NCBI RefSeq assembly: GCF_950295315.1
Contig: NW_026647602.1
Span: 1-64,000 of the forward strand
Length of the DNA: 64,000 nt
DNA from: Erinaceus europaeus
Taxonomy: Eukaryota; Chordata; Mammalia; Eulipotyphla; Erinaceidae
Direction of reading: 5' to 3'
This document shows, piece after piece, positions 4,965 through 64,000 of this stretch. Under the pieces are notes generated by a model, which was given only the letters and a program-made list of their open reading frames with translations, did not search any database and was not told where the DNA came from. How positions within the stretch are numbered: position 1 is the stretch's first letter; each line of letters opens with the position of its first letter. Both the position numbers and the translations under genes were made by a program.

Positions 4965-5060
4965 TCAGGAATGACTCATTTGGATAGTGTACTGCTTTGC
5001 CATGTGCCTGACTGGGGTTTGAGCCTTGCTCCCTCTGCATTGAAGGAAACTAAGATGTCT
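4965..5060 (+). mobile_element. Diverged SINE head preceding a hexanucleotide array
   Basis: GGATAGTGTACTGCTTTGCC and GACTGGGGTTTGAGCC (B-box-like), then GCATTGAAGGAAACT. This is the layout of the diverged SINEs at 13274 and 55278. Its CT-rich body has become the array that follows. Confidence 0.65.
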
Positions 5061-5212
5061 TTTCCCTCTCCCTCTCCCTCTCCCTCTCCCTCTCCCTCTC
5101 CCTCTCCCTCTCCCTCTCCCTCTCCCTCTCCCTCTCCCTCTCCCTCTCCCTCTCCCTCTCCCTCTCCCTCTCCCTCTCCCTCTCCCTCTCCCTCTCCCTC
5201 TCCCTCTCCTTC
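5061..5212. repeat. (CCCTCT)n hexanucleotide array, about 24-25 units
   Basis: Nearly perfect tandem units over about 150 bp. All strand frames stay open, giving artificial Ser-Pro, Arg-Gly and Glu-Gly polymers; these are not genes. It appears to have expanded from the CT-rich part of the SINE just upstream. Confidence 0.97.
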
Positions 5213-5254
5213 CCTTCTTACCAAGCACTTTGAAAAAACTCAATTTAGAGTGGT

Positions 5255-5570
5255 TCTTCTTCTTCTAGCATTTGCCCTTCTTCCGTAGCCAGTCAACAGC
5301 ATCAGGTTGAGCCTGATGTAAAGTTTCGAGACCTCCTTTGAATCTGGAGAGGTGGCAGTCATTGACTATGTGGGTCATAGTCTGTCTGTAGCCGCAGGGG
5401 CAGTTCGGGTCGTCTCTGGCTCCCCAGCGATGGAACATAGTGGCGCACTGGCCATGGCCTGTTCGATAGCGATTGAGGAGGGCCCAATCATAACGTGCTA
5501 GGTCAAAGCCGGGTTGACGCTTGCAGGGGTCTGTGATGAGAGTGGTGCAACCTGTTGATGACAAAATAAT
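5255..5570 (-). mobile_element. LINE-J 3' end: C-terminal coding region and (AAG)n tail
   Basis: Minus-strand coding sequence reads RQPGFDLARYDWALLNRYRT, then CPCGYRQTMTHIVNDC, a C-x-C-x7-H-x4-C zinc-knuckle-like motif common at the end of Jockey/I-type LINE proteins, and ends AVDWLRKKGKC-stop. The TAG stop is followed at once by AAGAAGAAGAA, so this LINE seems to have no 3'UTR beyond a trinucleotide tail. A candidate 8-bp target-site duplication AGAGTGGT lies at 5247-5254 and 5539-5546. If real, the insertion is 5255-5538; coding similarity may run slightly past it, so the 5' limit is uncertain. This copy reveals the 3' end that the copy at 61741 loses at the window edge. Confidence 0.85.
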
Positions 5571-19440: not shown

Positions 19441-19464
19441 CCGCAAGCAGATAGGCAGAACCCT

Positions 19465-19650
19465 TCTTCCGTAGCCCTTCTTCCGTAGCCAGTCAACAGG
19501 TCAGGTTGAAAGCTGTCAGGAGGTGCTTGTTGCTGGCTTTGAAAATGACTGGGATCCATGTGGATTTAGTCGGCTAGGAAGGATCGTCAGTTTCCCCAAT
19601 GAATGGGTACTCACGGGATGCACCACGAGAAGGTCGATCCAATGCATCCC
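19465..19650 (-). mobile_element. 186-bp SINE-like element sharing its 3' end with LINE-J
   Basis: Bounded by a perfect 12-bp duplication AGGCAGAACCCT (19453-19464 and 19651-19662). Read on minus, the last part (CAACCTGAC-CTGTTGACTGG-CTACGGAAGAAGGG) matches the LINE-J coding end over about 36 nt. The upstream ~140 bp match nothing else in the window. The 3' tip repeats CTACGGAAGA, as if the template tail had slipped, and lacks the LINE-J stop codon. The 5' end forms an 8-bp inverted repeat, GGGATGCA/TGCATCCC (19643-19650 with 19615-19622). GATCGACCT in the head resembles a Pol III B box weakly. It may be a SINE using LINE-J for mobilisation, or an internally deleted LINE-J retaining an unseen 5' region. 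Confidence 0.7.
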
Positions 19651-19662
19651 AGGCAGAACCCT

Positions 19663-21412: not shown

Positions 21413-22280
21413 AAAAATGTTTTATTTTTTATTATTGATTTAATACTAATTTACAAGATTGTGAGGGGTATAATTGTAATAGGGGTGTAATTCCATATAG
21501 TACCTACCATGAGAGTTCTCTGTCCCACCCCCATGCATTGGAAACTCCCCTGTTATTTATTCCCCTGGGAGTAAAGACCAAAATTCTTTTTAGGGTGTAG
21601 AAGATGAGAGTTCTGACTTCATAATTGCTTCTCTGCTGGATACGAATGTTGGCAGGGGATCCATAACCCCATACTGTTTCTATCTTTCCCTTGTGGGGTA
21701 GGACTCTGGAGGGGTGATGTTCCAGGACACATTGGTGAGATTGTCTGCCCAGGGATGTCAGAGTGGTATCATAGTAGCATCTGGAACTTGGTGGCTGAAA
21801 TGTAGTAAGGTGGAAAACAGAACAAATTGTTTAATAAACAGAAACCATAAAGTAGGAATAGAACAGATGAAAGTAGGGACTTTATGGTAAGAGGAAGCTA
21901 GGAAGTCTGTTTTAGGCATGTTCCTAGAAGCCTATGTCTTAATAATCTTTGCTTGAGCTTGATAACTAACATGGGCATGGGCCAAAAATATCTGGGAAGA
22001 CAGTGTCAGAGTTGAGAGTAGAACCAGAAGCAGAATTGGGGCAGTGAGTTGCTTGCAAACTTGAAGAAGATACATAAATGCGTTTAACTGTTTGCCACAG
22101 TGATCTAACCCAGGGCCTATATCCATTCATATTTAGCACAGGAGCCTGTACAACCTCTGAGTCCCTGTCAGACTGAATTCACAGTCTGGGAACATTCTAG
22201 GCTGCAATTTCAGAGCTAGTCTTCCTTAAGTGAAAGAGTAGGATGATCCAGCCTCCTTTCAGAGAGTGGGGCAATCCCTT
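21413..22280 (-). mobile_element. L1 3'UTR
   Basis: Starts with AATGTTTTATTTTTTATTAT, then TACAAGATTGTGAGGGGTAT, GAGTTCTGACTTCATAATTG and GTGGTATCATAGTAGCATCT, in the order seen at 33845-34205. The part beyond 21800 resembles 220-355 and is the 5' portion of this 3'UTR; its outer limit is uncertain. Confidence 0.75.
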
Positions 22281-28413: not shown

Positions 28414-30034
28414 GAGAGACTTCCAGAGGCATGGCTATTGATTAGCAGCAGCTGTGTTTTGCTCTCCCTGATCAATTAGGAATTACAAAGAGGATCACCT
28501 GAGAATGCCACAGAATAGGACTCGGATTACTTCAGGAACCATCTAAGGAAGGGGTGAGTGCAAACACTTGTGACTCATCAACAGAGAGGAGCTTAAGAAG
28601 AGATCCTGGGGCTAAAAGCCCATACTTACTAGGGAATGGCTGGTACCAATGTATCAGTGTGTCAGTTGACATAGCACTTCCGGTCCGAGTTTTACAAAAA
28701 GTAAACAGGGATACAACAACAAAACTCCAGACCGATATCTCTGATGAGCAAAGATGCTAAAATAATGAACAAAATTCTAGCCAACCAGCTACAGCATTAT
28801 ATTAAAAAGAGTGTTTATCATGACCAAGTGGGGTTTATCCCAGGGATGCAAGCTTGGCTTATGATCCACCACATCAATAAAAGCAAGACCAAAAACTGCA
28901 TGATCATATCAATAGACAGAGAGAAAGCCTTTGACAAAATCCAACATCCCTTTATGATCAAAACACTACAAAAAAAAAAAAAAGGAATAGATGGAAAATT
29001 CCTCAAGGTAGCAGAGTCCATATATAGCAAACTTACAGTCAACATCATACTCAATGGTGAAGAACTGGAGGCATTCCCCCTCAGATCAGATACTAGACAG
29101 GATTACCCACTAACCATTACTGTTCAACATAGTGTTAGAAGTTCTTGCCATAGCAATCAGGCAGGAGCAAAGAATTAAAAGAAAACAATTGGAAGATAAG
29201 AAGTCAAACTCTTACTATTTGCAGATGACATGATCTGTATCAGATCAAGTATACATTGGCAAACCTAAGGATCTAGCAGGAAACTCTTGAAAATTATCTG
29301 GTGTCTTGGAAATTACAAGGTGTCAGGCTACAAACTTAACATACAAAAGCCAGTGGCATTTCTCTATGCAGACACTAAGATCACAGAAGAAGAAATCCAG
29401 AAATCAATTCCTTTTACTATAGCAACCAAAACAATAAAATATCTAGGAGTAAACCTAACCAAAGAAGTGAGAGATTTATATACTGAAAATTATGAGTATT
29501 CAAGGAAATAGAAAAAGACACAAAGAAGTAGAAAGCTACTCCATGTCCATGGGTTGGAAGAATTAGCATAATTAACATCATCAAAATTAATATACTAGCC
29601 AGAGCCATATACAGATTTATTGCAATCCCCATCAAGACCTTACCCAACGTTTTTAGGAGAATAGAACGAAAGCTACAAATATTTATTTGGAACCAGAAAA
29701 GACCTAGAATTACCAAAACCATCTTTAATAAGGGTGCCCAGAGTCTTAAATGGGGAAAGGAGAGTCTCTTCAACAAATGCTGTTGGAAAATTTGGATTGA
29801 AACATGCACAAGAATGAAATTGAACCACTATATTTCACCAAACACAAAAGTAAACTCCAAATAAATCAAGAACTTGGATGTTAGACAAGAAACTATCATA
29901 TACTTAGGGGAAATATTGGCAGAACTCTTTTCCATCTAAATTTTAAAGGCATCTTCAATGATATGAATCCAATTACAAAGAAAATAATTATATCAGACAA
30001 GAGGCTAATAACAAAATATATAAAGAGCTCACCC

Positions 30035-30091: not shown

Positions 30092-30300
30092 CCCCATCCA
30101 AAAATGCCAAAAATGGGGAGAGCATATGAACAGAATATTCACCAGAGAAGAGATCTAAAAGACCAACAAACATGACAAAATGCTCCAAGTCATTGATTGT
30201 TGGAGAAATGCAAATAAAGACAACAGTGAGATAACATTTCACCCCTGTGAGAATGCTATACATCAGAAAAGGTAGCAGCAGCAAATGCTGGAGAGGTTAT

Positions 30301-30366
30301 TCTTCTTCTTCTAGCGTTTGCCCTTCTTCCTTAGCCAGTCAACAGCGTCAGGTTGAGCCTGATGTA
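30301..30366 (-). mobile_element. 66-bp LINE-J 3'-end insertion inside an L1
   Basis: The L1 ORF2 sequence is interrupted by TCTTCTTCTTCTAGCGTTTG and on to GCCTGATGT. Outside the tail this differs at only a few positions from the reverse complement of the coding end at 5257-5320. It is flanked by a perfect 10-bp duplication GAGAGGTTAT (30291-30300 and 30367-30376), and the neighbouring L1s at 34640 and 36450 lack the insert. It is thus a bona fide, strongly 5'-truncated retrotransposition event, younger than its host L1. Confidence 0.93.
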
Positions 30367-31334
30367 GAGAGGTTATGGGGACAAAGAAATCCTCCTGCAC
30401 TACTGGTGGGAATGCAAATTAGCCCAACTCCTGTGGAGAGCAGTTTGGAGAACTCTCAGAAGGCTAGAAGTGGACCTACCGGTAGCTATGATCCTGCAAT
30501 TCCTCTCCTGGGGATATATCCTAAGGAACACAACACACCCATCCAAAAAGATATGTATATACCTATGTTTACAGTAGCACAATTTGTAATAGCCTAAACC
30601 TGGAAGCAACCCATGTGTCCAACAACAGGTGAGTAGCTGAGTAAGTTGTGATATATATACACAATGGAATATTACTCATCTATTAAAAATGGTGAATTTG
30701 CCTTCTTAGTCTCATTTTGTATAGTGCTCGAAGGAATCCTGTTAAGAGAGATAATTCAAAAAAAAAAAAAAGGATGAATATGGGATGATCTCACTCATAG
30801 AACTTGAAAAGCAAGATCAGAAGGGAAAACACTAAACAGAATTTGGACTGGATTTGGTTTATTACACCAAAATGAAAGACTGGAATGTGGGAGAGGGTTC
30901 AGATCCTGTAGTATGATGGTAGAGGAGGACTTTGAGGGGGTTGAGTTGTTATGTGGTAAACTGAGAAATGTTACACATGCACAGACTATTACATTTTACT
31001 GTCGACTGTAAAACCCAAATAAATAAATAAAATGAAAAGAAAAAAAATAGAACATGACATTCCCCATCTCCATATCTGGCTTTTAAAACAAATTGAGATA
31101 GCATCAGCTTCTAAGAGTGTATGTTGCAGGAGTACACTCTCAAACTCGTCCTGATGTGTGTTACCACACTACACTACCTCCAAAGTACCATTGGGCCCTT
31201 CACACTTACAGCCCAGTTTTCCATCGGTCAACTAAGTTCTGTAGTCTGAGTCTAAAGGTTTGTTTTTTGTTTGACTTTCTTCCCTAGCTTTGTTTCTTTA
31301 TGTTCCACTTTTGAATGAATGACGCCTTTGGTGG

Positions 31335-33844: not shown

Positions 33845-34835
33845 ATTTTTAAAATAATTAATGATTTAATAATGGTCGACAAGATTGTGGGATAAGAGGG
33901 GTACAATTCATATAATTCCCCTCACCAGAGTGCCATATCCTATCCCCTCCATTGGAAGTTTCCCTATCTTTATCCCTTTCAGAGTATGGATCATAGATCT
34001 TTATGGGGCATAGAAGTTTGGAAGTCTGGCCTCTGTAATTGCATCTCTGCTGGACATGAGCATTGACAGGTTGATTCACCCCCTCCCCCAGCCTGTTTCT
34101 GTTTTTCCATAGTGGGGTAGGGCTCTAGGGATGTGGTGGTCCCAGGACACATTGGTGAAGGTGTCTGCCCAGGGAAGGCAGATTGGCATCATACTACTAT
34201 TTTTCAACTTCTGCCTGTGAGTGAGATCATCCCATATTCATCCTTGTGTTTCTGACTTATTTTACTTAACATGATTCCTTCAAGCTCCATCCAAAATGAG
34301 ACTAAGAAGGTAAATTCACATTTTTAATAGCTGAGTAGTATTCCAGTGTGTATATGTATCACAACTTACTTACCCACTCACCTGTTGTTGGACACCCGGG
34401 TTGCTTCCAGGTTTGGGCTATTACAAATTGTGCTACTGTGAACATAGGTGTACACATATCTTTTTGAATGGGTGTGTTATGTTCCTTAGGATATATCCCC
34501 AGGAGAGGAATTGCAGGATCATAAGGTAGGTCCACTTCTAGCCTTCTGAGAGTTCTCCAAACTGCTCTCCACAGGAATTGGGCTAATTGCATTTCTACCA
34601 GCAGTGCAGGAGGATTTCTTTGTCCCCATAACCACCCCAGCATTTGTTGCTGCTACCTTTTCTGATGTATGACATTCTCACAGGAGTGAAGTGGTATCTC
34701 ATTGTTGTCTTTATTTGCATTTCTCCAACAATCAATGACTTGGATCATTTTGTCATATGTTTGTTGGTCTTTTGGATCTCTTCTCTGGTGAATATTCTGT
34801 TCATATCCTCTCCCCATTTTTGGATGGGGAGGCTG
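33845..34835 (-). mobile_element. L1: ORF2 C-terminus plus 3'UTR
   Basis: The complement reads WGQRNPPALLVEMQL, DPAIPLLGIYPKEHNTPIQK and FVIAQTWKQPGCPTTGEW. The frame is open over 34359-34643 but the copy is 5'-truncated. Its 3'UTR (33845-34205) is the type with GATTTAATAATGGTCGACAA near the tail, different from the preceding fragment. Confidence 0.92.
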
Positions 34836-36339: not shown

Positions 36340-37212
36340 AAATGGCCAGAGATTGTCAGAGAAATGCAAATAAAGACAACAGTGAGATACCACTTCACTC
36401 CTGTGAGAATGTCATACATCAGAAAAAGTAGCAGCAACAAATGCTGGAGAGATTGTGGGGTCAAAGGAACCCTCCTCTGCTGGTGGGAATGTAAATTGAT
36501 CCAACCTCTGTGGAGTGCAGTCTGGAGAACTCTCAGAAGGCTAGAAGTGGACCTACCCTATGACCCTGCAATTCCTCTCCTGGGGATATATCCTAAGGAA
36601 CACAACACACCCATCCAAAAAGATATGTGTACACCTATGTTCATAGCAGCACAATTTGTAATAGCCCAAACCTGGAAGCAACCCAGGTGTCCAACAACAG
36701 TTGAGTGGCTAAGTAAGCTGTGGTATATATACACACTGGAATACTACTCAGCTATTAAAAATGTGAATTTACCTTCTTAGTCTCATTTTGGATGGAGCTT
36801 GAAGGAATCATGTTAAGTAAAATAAGTCAGAAACACAAGGATGAATATGGGATGATCTCACTCACAGGCAGAAGTTGAAAAACAAGATCAGAAGAGAAAG
36901 CACAAGTAGAACCTGAACTGGAGTTGGTGTATTGCACCAAAGTAAAAGACTCTGGAGTGGTTTGGGGGGAAGAGTACAGGTAAACATTAATCTCTCAATA
37001 AGGAAATTTAAAAAATGGTCAGATATATACAAATATAGACAGATAGTTGTAGAAATAATAGTTGACCCCTATCTGCAAACTTGGGAGAACTGCTATAGCT
37101 TACAATGAAGGTTTGGGTACCTGGTGGTGGGAATGGTATGGAATTATACCCCAGTTATCTCACAATTTTGTACACCAGTATTAAATCACCAATAAAAAGA
37201 AGGAAAAAAAGG
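36340..37212 (+). mobile_element. L1: ORF2 C-terminus plus 3'UTR
   Basis: EMQIKTTVRYHFTPVRMSYI-type start, SNKCWRDCGVKGTLLCWWEC, DPAIPLLGIYPKEHNTPIQK and YIYTLEYYSAIKN are open over 36364-36780. The 3'UTR contains GGTGGTGGGAATGGTATGGA and ends in ATTAAATCACCAATAAAAAG with an A-rich tail. 5'-truncated. Confidence 0.93.
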
Positions 37213-42274: not shown

Positions 42275-42467
42275 ATTTCTTTTGACCTGGCGGAATATAC
42301 TGCAGATGTGGATGGAGTTGGCACTTTACGGCTTCTAGATGCAATTAAAACCTGTGGCCTTATCAACTCTGTGAGATTCTACCAAGCCTCTACAAGTGAA
42401 TTATATGGGAAAGTGCAAGAAATACCCCAGAAGGAGACCACACCTTTTTATCCACGGTCACCTTATG
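42275..42467 (+). CDS. GMDS: GMDS internal exon (GDP-mannose 4,6-dehydratase, about residues 116-180)
   Basis: GMDS is a cytosolic, NADP-dependent extended short-chain dehydrogenase that converts GDP-D-mannose to GDP-4-keto-6-deoxy-D-mannose, the first step of de novo GDP-L-fucose synthesis. The exon begins after a pyrimidine-rich acceptor ending TTTCTAG and reads in phase 0 as [14 protein letters not shown] onward. It ends after one base of a Gly codon at a GTGAGA donor. QASTSELYG carries the catalytic Thr (codon at 42392) and Glu (42398), and SPYG carries the catalytic Tyr (42464); by human numbering from memory these are Thr155, Glu157 and Tyr179. There is no stop or frameshift and splice sites are intact, so this looks like the functional gene and not a retrocopy. 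The Rossmann GxxGxxG motif must lie in an upstream exon outside the window. Read-through of the donor would extend the frame to a stop near 42604; I regard that as chance. Confidence 0.97.
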
Positions 42468-43579
<1,112 letters not shown>

Positions 43580-61382: not shown

Positions 61383-61510
61383 AAGGGCTAACAGTTCATT
61401 TTGCCATGTATATGACACTTGGTACACAACTACATGGGAGTACTGGGTGAGTGGTGGATTTCAGTGCTATGGAAGTACTCCCTTTCTTTTCTCTCTGTCT
61501 CTTTCTTTTT
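61383..61510 (+). mobile_element. SINE remnant
   Basis: AGGGCTAACAGTTCATTTTG head, GGTGAGTGGTGGATTTCAGT, GCTATGGAAGTACTCCC, then CT-rich TTTTCTCTCTGTCTCTTTC running into the L1. Confidence 0.6.
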
Positions 61511-61744
61511 TAAAAAATTTTTATTTATAAAAAGGAAACACTGACAAAAACCATAGGATAAGAGGAATACAACTCCACACAGTTCCCACCACCAGAACTC
61601 CGTATCCCATCCACTCCCCTGATAGCTTTCCTATTCTTTATCCCTCTGGGAGTATGGACCCAGGGTCATTATAGGATGCAGAAAGTGGAAGGTCTGGCTT
61701 CTGTAATTGCTTCATGGCTGAACATGGGCGTTGACAGGTCAATC
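61511..61744 (-). mobile_element. L1 3'UTR fragment interrupted by LINE-J
   Basis: T-rich tail, AACTCCACACAGTTCCCACC, GGGAGTATGGACCCAGGGTC, GGTCTGGCTTCTGTAATTGC and GAACATGGGCGTTGACAGG. The L1 phrase breaks off at GTCAATC, where LINE-J begins, with ATC shared at the junction. Confidence 0.9.
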
Positions 61745-63066
61745 TTGACTAGGAGACCGCGGTGCCAGACCGTGTCATAGGCTGCTGTGAGATCAACAAA
61801 GACAGCACCCGTCTTTAAATTCTTCTGGAATCCATTTTCAATGTAAGTTGAGAGGGCTGGGGCTTGTTCGCAGGTAGATCTTCCTGGGTGGAAACCAGCC
61901 TGGGCGGGTGATAGGAATTTCTCTGTAAGATGAGAAATACGTGACAGAAGCAGCCTCTCAAGGAGTTTGTAACACACAGAGAGGAGAGAAATTGGTCTAT
62001 AGCTGGCGGCCAGTGTTGGGTCTTTCTTTGGTTTCAAAACCGCTATAATCTTTGCATGACGCCAAATTTTGGGCATAGACTCAGATTCCAAGATGTGGGA
62101 CAGGAATGAAGCGAGCCACTTCTTTGCCGCGGGACCCAGGTTAAGAATGAGTTCTGGGGTGATGTTATCATAGCCAGCAGCTGTTCCCAGTTTAACCCTC
62201 TTCAAAGCATCTTCCAGTTCAGACAGTGTAAAGGGAGAGATTTTTGGAGATGGGCAAGATAACCGGAAGTGGGATGACCATTCATGGGAAATTTCTCTTT
62301 TCCAGACTGGGTCGATCTTAGCACGTCCAACTTGAGTTAGGTGACTGGCCACTGAGTTTGGATATACGGGAGGATGGGAGACGGGAGGGGGTTGGCTACC
62401 GGCACCCAGTCTGTGAAGAAGCTTCCAGGCCTTCCTACTTGAGTGGGTGAAGTTCAGACTTTCCGTGAGTTGTTGCCAGCGGGCTTGGCGTGCTGCATCC
62501 AGGGAGGCAATGAGATGGTCAGCCACATCTGGGTCGCCCGACTCATCATACTGCTTTAGTAGTTGCTCGCATTCAGCATCAAGACAAGGTGTATAGTTAG
62601 CACGTCTCCCACGAGGAATGGCTTGGGAAGCTGCTTTGAAGATGGCTTGGCGGAAGCGCCTGTAGGAATCTTCAGAGGGGATAGAGTTAATTGGAATTGC
62701 AGGAATAGATTTGTTGGTAAGATCACTGAACAGACGCCAGTTTGCTTTCCGAAAGTTCCATCTTAGTTTCTCTGAGCACAGAATCAGTGGGAGCTGGAGA
62801 CCAATGTGGATGATAGCTGGGCGGTGATGACTGTGTGGGAAGATCTTGAGAACTTGTCTCGTAGCGGGAAAGGCTTGGCCGTTGACTGTGCTAATCCAGC
62901 ACAGGTCGGGTGATGAGTCTTTATTCCATCTAGCACTGTGAAAAGAGCCTGGCTGTTTGGGATCGTATAATAGGGAGAGGTCATTCGCTGAAGCCCAGTC
63001 AGCTAAGATAGAGCCATCAGCACGAGTGGAGGAATATCCCCAGTCTTGGTGATGACTATTAAAGTC
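61741..63066 (-). pseudogene. LINE-J ORF2, inverted 5' part: endonuclease C-terminus plus RT fingers/palm
   Basis: About 440 codons are open without a stop on the minus strand. In order: DFNSHHQDWGY (APE endonuclease metal/catalytic motif), SPDLCWIST, then HSHHRPAII (the terminal His motif of APE endonucleases). A linker of about 200 residues follows, then KIIAVLKPKKDP, ASYRPISLLSVCYKLLERLL (RT blocks 1-2), AGFHPGRST (block 2a) and VFVDLTAAYDTVWH, whose first Asp is the RT catalytic Asp of block A. Reading stops being element-like at the inversion breakpoint just after WHRGLLVKI. An in-frame TAG near 63073 lies in the duplicated breakpoint DNA. The frame is intact but the gene is broken by the inversion, so no complete polymerase can be made from it. 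Confidence 0.88.
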
Positions 63067-63088
63067 ATCCTAGTCAAGTCTATTAAAG

Positions 63089-63950
63089 TCTCCTAGTCAA
63101 GATCTCAAGATGCCTGCCTCCATGGGTGGCCAACACTAGATCGTTTCTTCTCCAAAACAGAAGATTCCAGGTACATCTGGGTGACAAGTCTAGCAGATGG
63201 AGACTTGTCTCAAGTGGCCTCCCCCAGGGCTCTGTTCTGGCTCCTACGCTATTTAATATTTACATCAATGACCTCCCAGAAACTTCTTCAAGGAAGTTCA
63301 TCTATGCTGATGACATCTGCTGTGCAACTCAGGCATCCAAGTTCGACATCCTTGAGGAAACACTCACGAAAGACATGTCTCTGATATCTGATTACTGTAA
63401 AAAATGGCGACTAATTCCTAGCACTGCAAAAGCGGTATCATCTGTTTTCCATCTACACCATGCCTCGGCCTCGCGTGAGCTTAATGTGCAGCTTGGCGAT
63501 ACGAGAATCCGGCATGAAGCCCAGCCAGTCTATCTTGGCGTTACTCTCGATCGCACCCTGTCATTTCACAAACATCTCATAAAAACTGCAGCAAAGGTGG
63601 GCGCGAGGAATAACATCATTGCAAGACTGGCCAGCTCCTCATGGGGCGCGAGCGCTTCCACACTACGATCATCATCTCTGGCATTATGCTATTCCACTGC
63701 AGAATACTGTGCCCCAGTATGGTTCCGTAGCCCCCATGTCCACTTGGTCGATTCCAAATTATATTCCTCCATGAGGATAATTTCTGGAACCATCCGTTCC
63801 ACCCCGGTTCCATGGCTGCCAGTTCTTAGCAACATCGCCCGCCAGATATTCGTCGGTATGCGGCATCATCTAAGTTCATTTCCCACGTCTATGCTCGACC
63901 GGACCTGCCAATATACGCGGATATCTTCGCCCATCCTGTTCAACGCTTGA
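63089..63950 (+). pseudogene. LINE-J ORF2, direct part: RT block B to thumb
   Basis: The frame starts at the breakpoint with LLVKISRCLP, the direct continuation of the inverted half. It contains GLPQGSVLAPTLFNIYINDL (RT block B), FIYADDICC (block C, with the two catalytic Asp), YLGVTLDRTLSFHKHL (block D/E region), and STAEYCAPVWFRS, typical of Jockey/I-like elements. The annotated frame stops at 63948. From about 63838 a different frame carries the coherent element-like sequence (RRYAASSKFI then LPIYADIFAHPVQRL) to the window end. I therefore infer a single-base deletion near 63838 in a C-rich stretch. The C-terminal zinc-knuckle-like region seen in the copy at 5255-5570 should follow beyond the window. 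Confidence 0.87.
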
Positions 63951-64000
63951 CGTCTCGTCACCCAATCTGGTCCCCTACGCCTACACTGAACTTCTCTGTT

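Follow-up and report, generated by a model that had tools for sequence, protein, structure and literature searches.

A dead and probably twin-primed copy of a likely Vingi-type LINE in the hedgehog Erinaceus europaeus

A LINE distinct from L1, with endonuclease and reverse transcriptase (RT) motifs, was located at positions 61742-64000 of the window (the whole stretch of 64,000 nucleotides that was analysed), and it extends past position 64000. The element consists of two segments in opposite orientation. The inverted 5' segment (61742-63066, minus strand) has 441 open codons covering the C-terminal part of the APE endonuclease, a linker and the N-terminal half of the RT, and the sense 3' segment (63088-64000, plus strand), which continues beyond the window, carries the RT core with YADD and some of the C-terminal region. 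A motif search of the translated window placed all seven APE and RT motifs that had been quoted in the first-pass annotation. On the minus strand were found DFNSHHQDWGY (63034-63066) and HSHHRPAII (62809-62835) of the APE domain, together with YRPISLL (61981-62001), AGFHPGRST (61873-61899) and VDLTAAYDTVWH (61762-61797) of the RT domain; the RT motifs GLPQGSVLAPTLF (63216-63254) and YADD (63303-63314) were found on the plus strand.

The translations of 61742-63069 (minus strand) and 63087-63950 (plus strand) were analysed as the two pieces of the element. The minus piece matched PF14529 (Exo_endo_phos_2, E = 8.2e-9) and PF00078 (RVT_1, E = 1.8e-15) in one frame, and the plus piece matched PF00078 (E = 3.6e-11). 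Since the minus piece covers positions 2-89 and the plus piece positions 106-204 of the 205-position RVT_1 profile, a single RT domain is split between them. The order of APE followed by RT in one ORF is seen in the minus piece, which carries both domains, and in complete form in the relative P0001, to which the minus piece aligns without gaps (61% identity, 441 aa).

The inverted piece breaks off in the middle of the RT after ...AAYDTVWHRGLLVKI, the sense piece opens with ...LLVKISRCLPPWVA, and both meet at the same RT codon. The mid-RT end of the inverted segment (61742-61757, minus strand) and the start of the sense segment at that codon (63088-63103, plus strand) form a 16-bp overlap; an inverted-repeat comparison showed the two copies to be reverse complements with 100% identity (repeat I3). 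The filler at the junction (63067-63087) is part of a 23-bp near-tandem duplication, direct repeat D1 (63044-63066 and 63068-63090, spacing 24, 78% identity), which spans the joint and combines the outermost bases of the inverted piece with the first ones of the sense piece. Because the relatives P0028 and P0002 are continuous through the joint point, no sequence is missing there and, apart from the filler, only the 16-bp overlap is doubled. An origin from two unrelated fragments was ruled out, since the pieces join at one codon with this overlap.

The main copy is dead, being truncated at its 5' end within the endonuclease, inverted and frameshifted. The frameshift lies near 63839, where the match to P0028 passes from one frame (63087-63839, 97% identity, 251 aa) to another (63839-64000, 98% identity, 54 aa). 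The frames had been described as well preserved; this holds for the 441 open codons and for conserved residues (the pieces span 139 positions at which 16 relatives do not vary, with 136 retained and 3 changed), and it does not hold at the frameshift. The CpGs, described as intact, are indeed abundant. The observed/expected ratio is 0.58 in 61742-64000 compared with 0.146 in the remainder of the window, and none of the 119 overlapping segments of the same size elsewhere reaches the value of the element (maximum, 0.299). The high CpG content and the retention of the invariant positions make the main copy look young.

Three further insertions in the window share the 3' end of the LINE. The first, copy A (5255-5538, minus strand), is a 5'-truncated copy of the C terminus that is 98% identical to P0028 over 90 aa and is flanked by the 8-bp target site duplication (TSD) AGAGTGGT at 5247-5254 and 5539-5546. 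It contains the CxC-H-C knuckle (CPCG...H...C, approximately 5355-5402, minus strand) that had been noticed earlier in a second copy, and its 3' end is formed by the stop codon TAG followed by AAGAAGAAGAA, with an (AAG)n end. A (CTCTCC)n satellite at approximately 5060-5210 stops about 40 bp from copy A. Copy B (30301-30366, minus strand) is a 66-bp LINE 3' end inside an L1, with the 10-bp TSD GAGAGGTTAT at 30291-30300 and 30367-30376, and it matches copy A at 94% over 70 bp. When joined, its flanks align across the site to the L1 copies at 34717-34549 (92%) and 36367-36533 (86%), which represent empty sites.

Copy C (19464-19650, minus strand) is a SINE-like insertion of 187 bp with the 11-bp TSD AGGCAGAACCC at 19453-19463 and 19651-19661. 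What it has in common with the LINE is the 3' end alone, where 37 bp match copies A and B at 95%, and it may belong to a non-autonomous Vingi family. A 14-bp unit is repeated at the 3' end of copy C. No convincing match to its 5' part was obtained among 176 relatives: copy C in three frames gave four matches of 6-17 aa (E = 0.005-0.99), the best of which lay in the shared 3' end, and 172 of 200 shuffles of the 5' part gave some match at E <=10 (best, 31 bits). A composition of copy C from the 5' end plus the 3' end of a Vingi was therefore rejected, the evidence covering the 3' end. When the joined flanks of copy C were compared with the rest of the window, nothing aligned through the site, so that the evidence for its insertion is the TSD.

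The main copy was inserted into a repeat (61480-61739) that was recognized by its matches elsewhere in the window and is read as L1 3' UTR. Its left flank matches this repeat at 52233-52049, 33890-34071, 3-80 and 21489-21631, and three of these four copies, followed past the point where the LINE starts, have other sequence there instead of the LINE. The reading as L1 3' UTR was adopted because the copy at 33890-34071 sits about 290 bp 3' of the frame 34359-34652 (minus strand), which we take to be the end of L1 ORF2. The proposal that the elements had inserted into L1s is thus borne out by copy B, whose flanks align to two L1s, and depends in the case of the main copy on how its flank is read.

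A coding exon of GMDS (GDP-mannose 4,6-dehydratase) was found at 42275-42475 (E = 1.1e-38 to a solved protein). The window apparently lies within GMDS or a copy of its exon, and this exon, along with the L1 content of the window, indicates that the host DNA is mammalian. The first-pass annotation had named contamination or misassembly of the contig as a ground for refuting a horizontal transfer; such a refutation is unlikely in view of the GMDS exon and the three further insertions with TSDs. It is in particular exceedingly improbable that the contig is a contaminant from a parasite or an environmental organism. Nothing in favour of this came to light. The exon speaks against it, as does the insertion of copy B, with its TSD, inside an L1 whose empty site is readable in two more L1s of the window, and contamination was ruled out on these two grounds.

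Relatives were searched using the joined pieces as the query; 8000 candidates were scored, at least 1161 of them had E <=0.001, and the best 120 were listed. A second search yielded the best 120 of 2400. P0028 is 97% identical from the RT to the C terminus and belongs to the same family as the main element. Its residues 1-20 are the antisense of the same LINE (window 63906-63965, minus strand, 85%, E = 2.6e-5), which indicates that the P0028 contig is rearranged or misjoined. The other proteins down to P0035, among the matches listed, show 55-62% identity. They were obtained from ena, jgi and lgn, with one from ncbi, and the complete-looking ones are about 1000 aa long with APE and RT, on contigs of approximately 3-5 kb. 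Among the matches listed with a host name were Cordylochernes scorpioides (a pseudoscorpion, 45%) and Phallusia mammillata (an ascidian, 44%) in the first search, and Phlebotomus papatasi (a sand fly, 49%), Cordylochernes (47%) and Nilaparvata lugens (a planthopper, 47%) in the second. There was no mammal among these few host-named matches, nearly all of the 120 listed in each search being without a host name.

A tree of the window pieces and 115 of the 120 listed proteins (LG+G4, SH-aLRT support only, relatives only) grouped the window copy with P0028 (SH-aLRT 100). This pair adjoins P0032 and P0039 (97), and its branch has a length of 0.41 changes per column. Among solved proteins, R2 was closest in sequence to P0028 (best E = 4.7e-12), and L1 ORF2 was one of the further matches (best E = 5e-9). 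R2 is not known to have an APE-type endonuclease, and the match to it therefore shows only an RT of the LINE type. With regard to a viral vector, an alignment of 17 rows scanned against viral contigs produced 12 pattern matches and no relatives among them, and 14 of 40 pattern matches in prokaryote genome contigs were distant relatives (22-31% identity); neither scan bears on animal hosts. One of the contigs, L001 (VFKM01000197.1, a Flavobacteriales MAG, 4.9 kb), matches query residues 130-819, from the endonuclease to the RT, at 24%, and may be a eukaryotic LINE contaminating a bacterial bin.

The main element was said to have no resemblance to the L1 ORF2 in the window. It is indeed not an L1, and a weak match exists to the L1 RT fragment at 28705-29178 (30% over 79 aa, E = 1.2e-7), a similarity usual among RTs. 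Membership in L1 was ruled out by comparison of this match with those to the other relatives listed, where identity is about 60% and 95% of the query is aligned. Judging from published descriptions, the main element is very probably a dead copy of a hedgehog Vingi LINE of the Vingi-1_EE type. Vingi was reportedly described from hedgehogs by Kojima, Kapitonov and Jurka in 2011, in a paper whose title is said to call it 'Ingi-related'. The same paper reportedly states that Vingi lacks RNase H and has 11 non-autonomous families, and left vertical descent possible. The I group is close to both Ingi and Vingi, and the earlier assignment as Jockey/I-like came close to the published family. At E <=0.1, P0028 shows only RVT_1, with no RNase H, and the main copy leaves the window before its C terminus. 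PF00075 and PF13456, the accessions of RNase H, occur in none of the 120 listed matches in the precomputed Pfam column.

Target-primed reverse transcription (TPRT) is established for LINEs. In the case of this element, we infer that its APE endonuclease would nick the host DNA and that its RT would then start reverse transcription of the element RNA at this nick. The other cut strand probably primed a second cDNA on this RNA, a process reportedly proposed as twin priming by Ostertag and Kazazian in 2001. This would leave the 5' part inverted relative to the 3' part, and the 16-bp overlap would be the stretch covered by both cDNAs. The layout of the main copy is that expected of twin priming, its right end and TSD lying outside the window; the enzymatic activities and twin priming as the cause are predictions from sequence. 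The opposite halves could instead reflect a later genomic inversion, two independent adjacent copies or an assembly misjoin, which we consider improbable. The 23-bp near-duplicate at the joint is a sign of some disorder, and the antisense start of P0028 shows that the family includes other rearranged or joined copies. Against this, the inverted piece ends in the middle of the RT, where TPRT yields no 3' end, the sense piece starts within 16 bp of the same point, and two independent breaks of a 3-kb element would rarely coincide so closely. Twin priming is the reading we prefer. The 5' inversions recorded in one cell-culture study were products of L1 in human cells, except for a single one of another LINE, Nimb-2_DR (PMC4245944), and few would accordingly be expected in LINEs other than L1.

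Horizontal entry of the element into hedgehogs is possible, and the present data neither prove nor refute it. Vingi elements in hedgehogs are named among the older likely horizontal transfers in mammals in PMC3183009. The nearest relative outside the family, among the matches listed, has only about 60% protein identity, which is too low to show a recent transfer and points to no donor. The host-named relatives (44-49%, arthropod or tunicate) are too distant to be donors, and the suggested entry through a parasite thus found no support. A transfer between parasitic nematodes and a eulipotyphlan is described for RTE1_Sar of the common shrew, an RTE element for which the same study obtained no significant match in hedgehog reads (PMC6542046). 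Vertical descent, without horizontal transfer, would require that the ancestor of amniotes already had Vingi, that most mammals lost it and that the line leading to hedgehogs kept it. X12_LINE of human has been assigned to Vingi, PMC9004415 gives a count of one pre-amniote Vingi fossil for human, and the anole lizard has Vingi according to PMC7561263 and PMC3747384; the low identity of the nearest relatives is likewise no positive sign of recent transfer. On the other hand, a young hedgehog derivative, Vingi-1N3_EE, has been published, with 311 copies of <1% divergence in Erinaceus europaeus (PMC3183009). The absence of mammals among the host-named matches also speaks against vertical descent, weakly, as nearly all matches carry no host name. 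The ancient Vingi traces in human leave vertical descent some weight, and we regard it as unlikely.

That hedgehogs carry a foreign LINE which may have entered horizontally was published in 2011, and the main element is by all signs already known. What seems to be new is that a single Vingi copy in a mammal shows the layout of twin priming. A literature search, with most subscription papers outside its scope, found no paper that treats both Vingi and twin priming, and the 5' inversion of a Vingi may perhaps be undescribed so far. That twin priming gives rise to 5'-inverted Vingi insertions in a mammalian host, and that an unsampled animal lineage, with about 60% protein identity, was the source of the Vingi of hedgehogs, is put forward as a tentative joint proposal, held at slightly less than even confidence. 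If it is true, twin priming in a mammalian host is not in effect a speciality of L1. A second LINE clade beside L1 in one mammalian nucleus would allow insertion features set by the element to be separated from those set by the host, such as 5' inversion and TSD length. A natural Vingi inversion, together with TSDs of 8-11 bp in three insertions with a common 3' end, provides one data point.

Compared by description with Vingi-1_EE, the main element is likewise a LINE of hedgehogs for which short young derivatives are known and horizontal transfer has been proposed, having APE and RT without RNase H; the main copy is inverted, 5'-truncated and frameshifted, and the descriptions show no difference otherwise. 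With P0001-P0035 other than P0028, it shares 55-62% identity and, as far as the complete-looking proteins of about 1000 aa are concerned, the combination of APE and RT, whereas the window copy and P0028 stand on their own branch of 0.41. Mammalian L1 has a weakly similar RT in ORF2, and 5' inversion is known for L1 as well. In contrast to the poly-A end of L1, however, copies A and B end in TAG plus (AAG)n.
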